Source: Candidatus Zixiibacteriota bacterium
GTDB taxonomy: Bacteria > Zixibacteria > MSB-5A5 > GN15 > FEB-12
Assembly (NCBI GenBank): GCA_022571985.1
Contig: JACZWU010000010.1
Location: forward strand, 68,322-100,321
DNA length: 32,000 nucleotides
Reading direction: 5' to 3'
Under the pieces are notes generated by a model. That model had not been told where the DNA came from and ran no database searches. It saw only the letters and a program-made list of their open reading frames with translations. Positions 18,888 through 22,390 of this stretch are shown in pieces. The translations under genes were made by a program, and so were the position numbers. How positions within the stretch are numbered: the stretch's first letter is position 1; every line of letters starts with the position of its first letter.

Positions 18888-20387
18888 TTAGCACGGTCCC
18901 GGTGCCGGACCGCTGCGGAAGATTCGGTCAACCAGGAAAGTCAGATCAAGGATATTGGATGAATTTCCGTCAGCATTTAAGTCACCCTCTACGGAACAGG
19001 GTCCAGAATCCCCGCTGCCCCTGAATATAAAATCCACTATGAATGTCAAATCCAGAATGTTGGCATCATTACCATCGCCATTTACATCACCCCTAATTCC
19101 AATACAACAGCAGTCCCCTGGAAAGACAAAGGTCCGCCCGCCGGGACCGCCGCCTGCTCCCACAATCAAGTCATCAAAACCGTCGTTATTTACATCACCG
19201 GCCGAAGAAACTGACTTACCATACCCGTCAAATTCAGTCTCGCCGGAGAAGATATAGATTGTTTCACCAGTTTTACCTGAAAAGACATAAGCCCGCCCGG
19301 CGCCAGTGCCACCAGCGTCATTACGATGAGCTCCCACTATTATGTCATCAAAACCATCGTTATTTACATCACCGGCCGAAGCTACCGACTGACCGAACCT
19401 GTCCCCTCCCGCCTCGCCGGTGAAAACATAAAGAGTGTCACCAGTCTGACCGGAAAAGACATAAGCCCGCCCGGCGTCAGTGCCTCCAGCGTCATTCATT
19501 GAAGCACCCACAATCAGGTCAGCAAAGCCATCGTTGTTTACATCACCGTCTGTCCCAACTGAAATACCGAAGCGGTCTTCTGCCGCCTCGCCGGTGAAAA
19601 CGAAAAGAGTGTCGCCCGTCTGACCGGAAAAGACATAGGCCCGCCCGGCATTGTTGCCACCAGCGTCATTAAAAATAGCTCCCACTATCAGGTCATCAAA
19701 ACCATCGTTATTTACATCACCGGCCGAGGCAACCGAACCCCCGAAATCGTCACCTGAGGTCTCGCCGGTGAAGACATAAATTGTATCACCTGTCTGGCCA
19801 GAAAAGACATCTGCCCGCCCGGCAAAGGACCCACCAGCGTCACTAAGAATAGCTCCCACAATCAGGTCATCAAAACCGTCGTTATTTACATCGCCGGCCG
19901 AAGCTACCGAACGACCGAACAGGTCAAGTGCCCCCACGCCGGTGAAAATATAAATTGTATCACCCGTCTTACCGGAAAAGACGTACGCTCGTCCGGCTTG
20001 GAACCCACCAGCATCATTATGGGGTGCCCCCACAATCAGGTCATCAAAACCGTCGTTGTTCACATCACCAGCGCCGGAAACTGAAAAGCCGAGGTTGTCC
20101 CCTGCTGCCTCACCAGTGAAGACATAAATTGTATCACCGTTCTGACCGGAAAAGACATAGGCTCGCCCGGCCCAAGTGCCGCCGGCGTCATTAAGCCAAG
20201 CTCCCACGATCAAGTCATCAAAACCATCGTTATTTACATCACCAGCCGAAGCAACCGAAATACCGAACTGGTCGCCCTTCGCCTCGCCTGTGAAGATATA
20301 GACCGGCGGGCACTGAGTATGGGCAGGTGATACAGCCACAACGAGAAACATAATTGATAGCAAAAAATTAAGTTTCGAGAATTTCAC
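18888..20387 (-). CDS. Secreted FG-GAP beta-propeller protein with dockerin-like tail (1)
   Basis: A 499-residue exported protein. A signal peptide (to about AHT-Q, residue 24) is followed by seven integrin-alpha-like FG-GAP repeats of 58 residues, each with a Ca-binding loop such as [15 protein letters not shown]. This predicts a seven-bladed propeller. After CCCI the final 70 residues are a dockerin type I-like pair of EF-hand-type loops, [18 protein letters not shown] and EGDLNADGNSSNILDLTF. The start is GTG (20385-20387) with AAGGA seven bases upstream. It is a tandem paralogue of the gene to its right. The likely role is extracellular adhesion or carbohydrate/protein binding. No catalytic domain is present, and no cohesin partner is in the window. 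Confidence 0.9.
   Translation of the reverse strand: MKFSKLNFLLSIMFLVVAVSPAHTQCPPVYIFTGEAKGDQFGISVASAGDVNNDGFDDLIVGAWLNDAGGTWAGRAYVFSGQNGDTIYVFTGEAAGDNLGFSVSGAGDVNNDGFDDLIVGAPHNDAGGFQAGRAYVFSGKTGDTIYIFTGVGALDLFGRSVASAGDVNNDGFDDLIVGAILSDAGGSFAGRADVFSGQTGDTIYVFTGETSGDDFGGSVASAGDVNNDGFDDLIVGAIFNDAGGNNAGRAYVFSGQTGDTLFVFTGEAAEDRFGISVGTDGDVNNDGFADLIVGASMNDAGGTDAGRAYVFSGQTGDTLYVFTGEAGGDRFGQSVASAGDVNNDGFDDIIVGAHRNDAGGTGAGRAYVFSGKTGETIYIFSGETEFDGYGKSVSSAGDVNNDGFDDLIVGAGGGPGGRTFVFPGDCCCIGIRGDVNGDGNDANILDLTFIVDFIFRGSGDSGPCSVEGDLNADGNSSNILDLTFLVDRIFRSGPAPGPC
19145..20300 (-). repeat. Seven in-frame 174-bp tandem repeats
   Basis: The conserved 'tacatcaccggcc'-like segment recurs at 19191, 19365, 19539, 19713, 19887, 20061 and 20235, exactly 174 bases apart each time. 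Each unit encodes one 58-residue FG-GAP blade. The copies are alike enough at DNA level to make recombination, and assembly collapse, plausible. Confidence 0.9.
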
Positions 20388-20498
20388 AGTATGTCCTTTT
20401 GTTGAAACGGACTTAATACTCTATTTCAGGCTGCGTAATTATAATTCTTGATGAAATATCAGCAGCCCACTGGACTCGTAATTAAAGAATTTGTACTT

Positions 20499-20528
20499 CA
20501 ATTTGCACAAAATAGGCCTGATTGTCAA
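20499..20528 (-). promoter_or_regulatory. Putative promoter of FG-GAP gene 1
   Basis: Minus-strand TTGACA (20523-20528), 18-base spacer, AAATTG (20499-20504), leaving a leader of about 105 bases before the GTG. The same arrangement, with TTGACA and AAATT(A/G) followed by GA(A/G)GTA and AAAT, occurs upstream of the paralogous gene, which supports function. Confidence 0.45.
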
Positions 20529-20561
20529 GGCTTTTTAGGATTAATTAGGGGAAAATCGAAA

Positions 20562-20626
20562 GTCAGGACGACAAGCCCTTTGACTCCCACGGAACTTCGT
20601 ACGCTCGGGACCGAATGGGTCCTGAC
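20562..20626. repeat. GTCAGGAC inverted-repeat element, copy 1
   Basis: GTCAGGAC (20562-20569) and GTCCTGAC (20619-20626) bound a 65-base element 12 bases after the stop of FG-GAP gene 2 and upstream of the gene 1 promoter. The 250-base gap 20388-20637 holds only this element, the promoter and the leader. Confidence 0.55.
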
Positions 20627-20637
20627 CTGCGATTATA

Positions 20638-22164
20638 TTATGGACATGACCCAGCAGCAGGGCCGCCGCGGAATATGAAATCTACCTGGAATGTCAAATC
20701 TAAAATATTTGCTGATTCTCCGTCAGCGTTTAAATCGCTCTCTTCCGGACAATAGCCAGAGTCCCCGCTGCCCCGGAAGATGAAATCTACAAGGAAAGTC
20801 AAGTCAAGAACATTGCCGTCATTACCATCACCATTGAGGTCGCCTCTATCAAACAGGCAGCAGCAACTACCTCCACCCAGATAGACATACACCCGACCGA
20901 GCTTATTACCGTAGTCATCGACGTAATTGGCACTAACTATCATGTCATCAAAGCCATCGTTATTTATATCACCAGCCGAAGCTACCGTTCGTCCGAAATA
21001 GTCTCCTGTTGCCTCGCCTGTTAATACCTTAAGCGTATCACCAGTCTGACCGGAAATAACAAGAACCCGTCCTGCGAAAAGGCTATTGGTGTCATTTATG
21101 GAAGCGCTGATTAATAGGTCATCAAAACCATCGTTATTCACGTCACCTGCCGAAGCAAACATGCGACCCATAAATTCTCCAACCCCTTCACCTGTGAAAA
21201 CATAAATTGTCTCGCCTGTCAAGCCGGAATAAACATAGGACCGGCCAGCAGCAAAAATTTCACCAGATCTATATAGATGAGCACCAACCATTATATCATC
21301 ATAGCCATCGTTATTTACATCACCCGCCGAAGATACCATTAGTCCGAACAAGTCAGCAGAAGACTCACCATCAAAGATATGAATAGCCTCACCGGACTGT
21401 CCGGAGAAAACATAAGCCCGACCTACACTAGGTCCGTCTGAGTCGTGCATATTAGCACCTATAATAATATCATCAAAGCCGTCGTTATTTACGTCACCCG
21501 CCGAAGCTACCGGTAAACCGAATAAATCTCCTTGAGCCTCGCCGGTGAAGACATAAATAGCCTCACCCGTCTGACCAGAATAAACATAGGCTCGCCCGGC
21601 GAGATCACCACCAGAGCTATTTGAATAAGCACCGACGACAATATCATCAAATCCATCATTATTTACATCACCGGCCGATGCAACAGAAGCTCCGAAATTG
21701 TCACTTACAGCCTCGCCTGTGAAAATATAAATTATATTTCCAGTCTGACCGGAATAAACATATGCCCGGCCGGCAGTATAGCCGCCAGCGTCATTCCACA
21801 TAGCACCAACTATCAGATCCGCAAAGCCGTCGTTATCGACGTCACCCGCCGAAGCTACCGAATAGCCGAATCGGTCTTGGGCCGCCTCAGCATCGAAAAC
21901 ATATAAAATATCTCCTGTTAAGCCGGAATATACATAGACACGCCCGGCATTTTTGCCAGCAGCTTCATTTGCTGGGGCACCGATGATTAAATCACTATAA
22001 CCATCATTATTGACATCACCCGCCGAGGCTACCGAAAGCCCAAAGAAATCTCCATGCGCCTCGCCTGTGAAAGTGTAGGCTGGTGGGCATTGGGAATACG
22101 CTGCCGAAAACATGAAAGATAAAATTATTACGCTTAGAAATAAATTAGATGTAGAAGCTTTCAT
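20638..22164 (-). CDS. Secreted FG-GAP beta-propeller protein with dockerin-like tail (2)
   Basis: Paralogue of the preceding gene. The 508-residue form starts at ATG 22162-22164, six bases after a strong GGAGGA. An ATG five codons earlier overlaps that SD and is rejected. A signal peptide ends near AYS-Q, followed by [12 protein letters not shown], which closely matches QCPPVYIFTGEA in the other copy. There are seven FG-GAP blades with [11 protein letters not shown]-type loops, one of which carries a single-residue insertion ([10 protein letters not shown]). A Cys-rich SCCCLF linker precedes the dockerin-like pair [16 protein letters not shown] and [16 protein letters not shown]. The blades have diverged more at DNA level than in gene 1. 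A surface or secreted binding protein is the best guess. Confidence 0.9.
20905..22075 (-). repeat. Seven 174/177-bp tandem repeats
   Basis: The blade-coding segment recurs at 20965, 21139, 21316, 21490, 21664, 21838 and 22012. Spacing is 174 bases except once 177, caused by one extra codon. It is homologous to the array in the adjacent gene but more diverged. Confidence 0.85.
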
Positions 22165-22268
22165 CTTATATCCTCCCATTAAGATGGACCTAGTGAACTA
22201 TTGCTGGACTAATCAAAGACGAACAACCTGCAGTTCAATAGACTTTTTTGATAAGAGTATTTCTACTC

Positions 22269-22297
22269 TAATTTGCTAAAAACGGGGCTTGTGTCAA
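22269..22297 (-). promoter_or_regulatory. Putative promoter of FG-GAP gene 2
   Basis: Minus-strand TTGACA (22292-22297, perfect -35), 17-base spacer, AAATTA (22269-22274), about 100 bases before the ATG. It aligns well with the region upstream of gene 1. Confidence 0.45.
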
Positions 22298-22331
22298 GGT
22301 ATTTGTTGGGTTATTCAGGTATGCATCATTA

Positions 22332-22363
22332 GTCAGGACCGCGCCAAGGAGGCGGGTCCTGAC
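22332..22363. repeat. GTCAGGAC inverted-repeat element, copy 2
   Basis: GTCAGGACC and GGTCCTGAC form a 9-bp stem continued by a CGCC/GGCG inner stem around AAGGA. It lies 28 bases after the corC stop, so it could end that operon's transcript, although no T-run follows on the minus strand. The outer arms and the adjoining ACCT match the element at 20562-20626. Confidence 0.55.
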
Positions 22364-22390
22364 CTACAATTCAATTTCTTTAGCTTAATG

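Follow-up and report, generated by a model that had tools for sequence, protein, structure and literature searches.

Tandem FG-GAP propeller genes with cysteine-bearing dockerin-like tails in a Candidatus Zixiibacteriota genome that also encodes candidate cohesin partners

We analysed a 32,000-nucleotide stretch of the genome of a Candidatus Zixiibacteriota bacterium (assembly GCA_022571985.1, contig JACZWU010000010.1, positions 68,322 to 100,321), called the window below, and in particular two adjacent genes, A and B, on its reverse strand (Table 1). A preliminary description made from the letters alone had taken their products for secreted proteins of seven blades each and no enzyme domain, and our results agree with it. 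Each product begins with a leader and contains seven stretches matching the FG-GAP family PF01839 (E 2e-52 in A and 2.4e-53 in B), the assignment to seven-blade propellers being a repeat count from the sequence, and no enzyme family came over the Pfam cut-off in either protein. The Pfam scan also recovered no sorting domain of the type IX secretion system (T9SS; Por_Secre_tail or CHU_C) in A or B. Of the NCBIfam models, XAC2610_fam exceeded its cut-off on short segments within the repeats, and SaoC remained below its own; these matches add nothing beyond the statement that the proteins are FG-GAP-like. The nearest solved sequences of the gene B product are integrin alpha chains (best integrin alpha-4, E 9.4e-18). 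As the two products are 61 % identical over 507 aligned positions, the pair is most simply explained by a tandem duplication. The second in-frame ATG, which lies at 22164 and has GGGAGG ahead of it, seems a likelier start of gene B than 22179.

Table 1. Features of the two propeller genes, in positions of the window
Feature	Position	Strand	Basis
Gene A, secreted seven-blade FG-GAP propeller with predicted dockerin tail (P0001, 499 aa, GTG start)	18888..20387	-	Pfam
Gene A tail: CCC, two 13-residue Ca loops, mid Cys and terminal Cys; predicted dockerin fold	18891..19112	-	profile, AlphaFold2
Gene A FG-GAP propeller region, seven repeats	19113..20309	-	Pfam
Gene A signal peptide, aa 1-25, putative cleavage before Q/C	20313..20387	-	hydrophobic segment
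Gene B, tandem paralogue (P0002, 513 aa), likely true start 22164	20638..22179	-	Pfam, alignment
Gene B tail, organised like tail A, 76% identical to tail A	20641..20865	-	alignment
Gene B FG-GAP propeller region, seven repeats	20866..22092	-	Pfam
Gene B signal peptide region, aa 1-29, putative cleavage SAAYS|QCPP	22093..22179	-	hydrophobic segment, sequence

Both proteins end in a tail that had been described as dockerin-like with a double loop, and structure prediction and profile comparison point the same way. The AlphaFold2 model, computed from the 74 tail residues together with 88 tails from this genome, reached pLDDT 92 and pTM 0.81 and has helices at residues 19-31, 40-43 and 54-66, which matches the dockerin pattern of two loop-helix repeats with a short helix between them. 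When it was searched against the PDB with Foldseek, dockerins filled the first 26 of 28 rows (probability 1.00; E-values were modest, best 0.012). VIA placed 4dh2_B on top (Z 9.8, 1.9 A, 68 residues), with dockerin entries throughout the matches listed. The profile of an 88-row alignment of the tails (A3) matched 17 PDB sequences at E<=1, of which 16, going by their names and positions, bear a dockerin (4fl4_A on top, E 4.9e-6). On this evidence the tail is a diverged dockerin by its predicted fold. A disguised T9SS C-terminal domain (CTD) was also considered for the tail and was rejected because of the fold, given the AlphaFold2 model and the Foldseek matches to dockerins.

The family model Dockerin_1 (PF00404) scored the window tails below its cut-off of 22.9 bits (A 13.1 bits, E 0.36; B 13.7 bits, E 0.22), perhaps because both calcium loops are 13 residues long and not 12. 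The 13 + 13 arrangement is present in both window tails and in 46 of 57 parsed rows of alignment A2, whose 59 rows are the 58 tails of this genome with an adjacent cysteine pair (CC tails) and one tail, L144, without it. The window tails therefore lack the canonical 12-residue loop of type I dockerins. A loop of this length has a precedent in the group 1 dockerins of Ruminococcus flavefaciens, where the second loop is coordinated at n, n+6 and n+12 and thus has 13 residues (PMC5429695; statements on cited papers refer to the passages of them considered here), and we therefore treat the tail as a dockerin variant and do not exclude it from the dockerins. Calcium would be expected to bind in these loops.

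The cluster of three cysteines at the start of the tail, which the preliminary description had called shared and unexplained, is indeed common to both genes, and its second and third residues can now be placed in a larger set. In A2, cysteines 2, 39 and 74 occur in all 59 rows and cysteine 3 in 58, while the first cysteine of the CCC seen in the window occurs in just 14; only the second and third are conserved. The CC pair was found in 15 of 16 tails from other genera (L290 lacks it) and in all 11 adaptor tails of relatives introduced below, and the mid and near-terminal cysteines in all 16. To judge from these alignments, the CC pair, the mid-tail cysteine and the terminal cysteine are a near-invariant set of four, which probably forms two disulfides tying the ends of the tail together, as the number and positions of the residues fit.

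The helix face of the tail is similarly uniform. Positions 10, 11, 17, 18 and 22 of the F-hand, which we take to be the cohesin contacts in clostridial dockerins, are mostly I/V, L, V, D and R in both repeats of A2, and D18 and R22 occur without exception in the 118 repeats that the 59 rows contain. This uniformity suggests a single partner type, bound in two orientations by a two-way symmetric plug.

Searching the same genome with the two window tails, as the preliminary description had proposed, gave 105 matches at E<=1. At E<=0.001 there are 93 tail-bearing frames, 92 of them with the tail no more than 15 residues from the C-terminus (58 with CC and 34 without) and one, L149, with an internal tail; the 92 include four partial matches absent from the 88-row alignment. 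No residue follows the match in 60 of the 92 frames, 1-4 residues follow in 27 and 5-15 in five. A hydrophobic N-terminal segment was seen in 85 of the 92, using a crude hydrophobicity proxy for signal peptides run over stop-to-stop frames, some of which are truncated where a contig or stretch ends. The PNPF-type motif of T9SS sorting domains is absent from the last 120 residues in 92 of the 93 frames. In Pfam censuses of the 92 frames at E<=1e-4 we counted Dockerin_1 in 12, FG-GAP_3 in 10, subtilase in 7, LVIVD in 6, lectin C and SBBP in 3 each and M14 in 2, and no glycoside hydrolase family appeared among the 25 of 37 and 25 of 36 families listed. The proteins bearing the tail thus include propellers, subtilases, M14, M6 and reprolysin-type peptidases and proteins with C-type lectin domains.

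Several members of this set have unusual features. L149 (184-2508, contig C9) is the sole protein with an internal tail plus a terminal T9SS sorting domain, and could be a natural control for which of the two labels decides placement. The propeller of gene A is closest to that of L135 (1517-3052, contig C6; 73% identity), whose dockerin tail differs and ends in CCQ: the A and L135 tails are 39% identical, compared with 76% between tails A and B and 75% between tail A and that of L154. By sequence, the tail is apparently an exchangeable module and L135 a case of tail swap; divergence of the L135 tail alone is a possible alternative. L125 (1539-3744, contig C4) is an FG-GAP propeller gene with a CCC tail that is split into overlapping frames of 249 and 490 aa by a frameshift, either in the gene or in the assembly. 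At L145 (contig C9, 253000-272500), three tandem frames of 1,175-1,201 aa all end in CC tails.

The preliminary description had seen no scaffoldin or cohesin near the genes. This is correct for the window, as its contig holds none of the 12 matches to the cohesin family PF00963 (E<=10, in 11 frames) that the proposed genome search returned, but the genome itself does encode cohesins, and nine of these 11 frames also have a Por_Secre_tail match. The clearest case is L132 (C5:121571), a 333-aa frame consisting of a leader, a cohesin (PF00963, 28 bits, over the cut-off) and a T9SS domain. Its cohesin was modelled by AlphaFold2 at about pLDDT 88, and VIA matched the model to 6kgc_A (Z 19.2, 2.0 A, 140 residues), with cohesin entries making up 49 of the 50 matches listed. 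The domain is thus a cohesin by sequence and by predicted fold. The profile of this cohesin, A8, matched 16 PDB sequences at E<=1, all of them cohesin chains. With it we recovered L106, a 287-aa frame composed of a leader, a cohesin (E 9.3e-5) and a CC tail, which could act as an adaptor. The idea of an organism without cohesin was rejected on the PF00963 and A8 matches and the predicted fold of L132. Neither a tail devoid of a dockerin fold nor a genome devoid of a possible partner, which the preliminary description had named as findings that would speak against its proposal, was encountered.

The same two architectures were found in relatives. Among 20 short cohesin frames from 20 relatives, taken from the A8 matches by a length of 256-288 aa, eight end in a T9SS CTD, 11 in a CC tail and one is cut by the contig end. 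The anchors of 11 relatives in alignment A7 had been chosen by frame length among PF00963 matches and viewed through a filter for the PNPF-type motif. The small anchor and the small adaptor of this genome contain one cohesin each; two cohesin matches in one frame occur in a 947-aa frame of the same genome (Pfam) and in several relatives. The presence of a T9SS is supported by a partial match to SprA_N over the cut-off (E 6.7e-12) and by 28 Por_Secre_tail matches over theirs. At L153 (contig C11, 5000-19000), three T9SS-tailed cohesin or cohesin-like proteins adjoin a 381-aa protein with a non-CC tail.

Across the family, the tail profile A2 found matches at E<=1e-10 in 53 of 54 genomes, and in 108 of 132 genomes of the phylum, where up to 44 candidates were scored per genome and distant matches need not be CC tails, A2 being a dockerin profile. 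A search of GTDB contigs with one strict peptide pattern gave 78 loci among the best 80 of 125, all in four Candidatus Zixiibacteriota metagenome-assembled genomes. Strong A8 matches (E<1e-30) are present in 43 of the 54 family genomes, a number counted from the per-genome table, with 12 of these proteins read as sequence; at the lax threshold of E<=1, matches occur in 53. A third and larger cohesin-like domain, A6, was found in 51 of 54 genomes with 1-18 copies each. Its PDB matches are weak and partial, nearly all to cohesins (best E 0.0012). A dockerin follows A6 in all 12 loci that were read on, two of them partly covered, and in four of five frames of our genome, L121 being the exception. 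The complete A6 frames of 748, 865, 942 and 1519 aa end in a CTD and L121 (257 aa) does not; a 3949-aa frame has a CTD match as well. In our genome, the positions considered are those of the stronger A6 and A8 matches.

Taken together, these results make it probable, in our view, that the propellers plug by their dockerin tails into cohesins displayed by the T9SS, in a cellulosome-like surface system without visible cellulases. Both propeller proteins would be exported by Sec, and calcium and disulfides would fold the tail, with the CC...C...C set as a lock. The last ~74 residues would then act as a calcium-dependent dockerin that plugs the propeller into a cohesin. One socket would be the leader-cohesin-CTD protein, which would place its cohesin on the cell surface, and another the leader-cohesin-tail adaptor, which might lengthen the array or add branches to it. 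The propeller may present a ligand-binding or adhesive face, and A and B would be two of about 92 clients with a common plug. One idea for the crossing of the outer membrane is that the tail protein rides out bound to the cohesin-CTD protein. The earlier proposal of display modules attached to a surface scaffold gains from the predicted dockerin fold and from the genomic cohesin with a T9SS domain; the attachment itself, like tail-cohesin binding, the surface location and the ligand role of the propeller, we infer. In a broader and more tentative version, to which we would give clearly less credit, the Zixibacteria as a phylum might possess a plug-and-socket surface proteome, in which the Cys-locked dockerin is a general C-terminal address tag on some ninety secreted proteins, parallel to the T9SS domain. 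The array would be made of single-cohesin T9SS sockets and adaptors, which perhaps pick up their clients in the periplasm and export them in bound form.

Several observations weigh against plugging into cohesins. The tail proteins have no T9SS CTD (the one exception in 93 is L149, with its internal tail), which leaves their route across the outer membrane unexplained. Our genome has 12 Pfam cohesin matches for 92 tails, the cohesin of the L106 adaptor was seen by A8 only and not by PF00963, and the CC tail of L282, from a relative, is followed by at least 78 more residues and is not terminal. Outside the genus of the window, D18 and R22 are not invariant. The numbers of tails and Pfam cohesins in the 54 genomes are not significantly correlated (rho 0.23, p 0.09), and nine genomes with fewer than 10 tails still contain cohesins. 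A strong A8 anchor is absent from 11 of the 54 genomes, namely G015-G018 (all four of their genus, g11), G019, G021, G027, where the A8 anchor is split into pieces, G035-G037 and G049. The most difficult case is G017 (96% complete), with 25 tails at E<=1e-10 and no cohesin by PF00963 or A6 at E<=1e-3 or by A8 at E<=1. An earlier view that genus g11 as a whole has tails and no cohesin at all was weakened and holds for G017 only: A8 found small cohesin-CTD frames in G016 and G018 and a weak match in G015 (5.8e-7), and the A6 copies in G015-G018 number 0, 1, 0 and 0.

Some of these points could also be read in favour of a tail that is mainly a C-terminal sorting signal, whose dockerin fold is read by an outer-membrane secretion machine that may also cleave it, with the cohesin link secondary. 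Such a role would fit the terminal position of the tail in 92 of 93 frames, 60 of the 92 with nothing behind the match, as well as the missing T9SS CTD of tail proteins, the excess of tails over cohesins and the tails of G017, and the way the tail fills the CTD slot in otherwise similar short cohesin proteins. We nevertheless hold it to be unlikely, as the predicted fold and the sequence of the tail are those of a cohesin-binding module and not of the beta-sandwich of T9SS CTDs (PMC4804311), the genome already holds T9SS-type parts with a CTD of their own, and L149 carries its tail internally and its CTD at the end. Alternatively, the tail might have no cohesin to bind and might instead cap the structure or mediate self-association in a calcium-dependent manner. 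The hydrophobic I/L at the loop-helix junction, the invariant D18 and R22 and the four cysteines could all serve folding, calcium loops of the type Dx[DN]xDG are known from many folds (PMC3123361), and the tail and cohesin counts do not correlate. This explanation seems rather improbable to us given that A8 matches reach 53 of the 54 family genomes at the lax threshold and are strong in 43, that adaptors fuse a cohesin to this very tail, and that tails apparently move between similar propellers.

A different receptor can be imagined as well, with the tails binding the larger A6 proteins, most of which have a dockerin in cis and a T9SS CTD, and not the small anchor. The distribution and copy number of A6, the CTD ending of four of the five complete frames and of the 3949-aa frame, and the predominance of cohesins among its weak PDB matches would all suit a receptor. 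Yet the dockerin that regularly follows A6 perhaps occupies it in cis and the resemblance to solved cohesins is partial and weak, which makes this version very improbable.

Nothing unusual was seen among the scanned neighbours of the two genes, which are a GH57 branching-enzyme homologue encoded on the opposite strand and CorC-like, 7TMR-HD, PhoH, PfkB-type and class II tRNA-synthetase genes. A palindromic element (AGGTCAGGACC...GGTCCTGACT) adjoins both propeller genes as a hairpin, at 22331-22364 (-29.9 kcal/mol, z -6.8) and at about 20555-20629 (-31.3 kcal/mol, z -2.6). The sequence GGTCAGGACC has 6 copies in 478 kb of other stretches of the genome against 0.6 expected by base composition, and the element may therefore be a dispersed repeat resembling repetitive extragenic palindromes (REP-like). 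Within the window alone, with one mismatch allowed, its 3 matches against 0.97 expected are unremarkable, as 6 shuffles reach the same number.

Most of what is known about cohesins and dockerins comes from cellulose degraders, and the purpose they serve in many other bacteria that encode them is not known. Here a single genome yields both candidate partners, a likely surface anchor, a likely adaptor and about 92 candidate clients. With the candidate partners nameable in one genome, a non-cellulosomal dockerin function becomes testable with small recombinant domains, and a dockerin that bears cysteines and seems to have one specificity could serve as a tool for protein assembly.

The system resembles the clostridial cellulosome in the predicted fold of both partners, the duplicated calcium loops and the modular tail, and differs from it in the 13-residue loops of both repeats and in its clients, which among the families listed are propellers, peptidases and lectin-domain proteins and include no glycoside hydrolase. 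Both loops are long here, whereas the first loop of the R. flavefaciens group 1 dockerin is typical (PMC5429695). The FG-GAP repeats are shared with integrin alpha; unlike integrins, the proteins are bacterial, have no other integrin domains and end in a dockerin tail. We found no paper on Zixibacteria or Zixiibacteriota together with dockerin, or on Zixibacteria together with cohesin, in the open-licence full-text literature that was searched, and a 2024 survey names presumably non-cellulolytic carriers of scaffoldins, for example Limihaloglobus (PMC11557425). The passages considered of another report describe a cellulosome-like system in Candidatus Stygibacter (Cloacimonadota), in which secreted enzymes with dockerin tails, S8 and C25 peptidases among them, accompany a cohesin scaffoldin whose C-terminal domain is said, with reference to a T9SS review, to attach to the cell surface (PMC8542988). 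The combination of dockerin-tailed secreted enzymes and a CTD-bearing cohesin protein is common to both systems. In Candidatus Stygibacter there is one multi-cohesin scaffoldin of 3,755 aa, with five dockerin proteins named in those passages; here we find single-cohesin anchors, cohesin-dockerin adaptors, about 92 tail proteins and a mostly Cys-bearing tail with 13-residue loops. For planctomycetes of the Nemodlikiaceae, a non-cellulolytic cohesin/dockerin complex for M12B and M14 peptidases, the 'planctosome', has been proposed (PMC6461901). As far as the passages considered describe it, it likewise has an adaptor with dockerin and cohesin, while its anchor, in another phylum, is a protein with a lamin-tail domain and ours has a T9SS CTD. 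The principle is thus already known, and what is new here is the layout of single-cohesin anchor and adaptor, the Cys-bearing tail and the scale.

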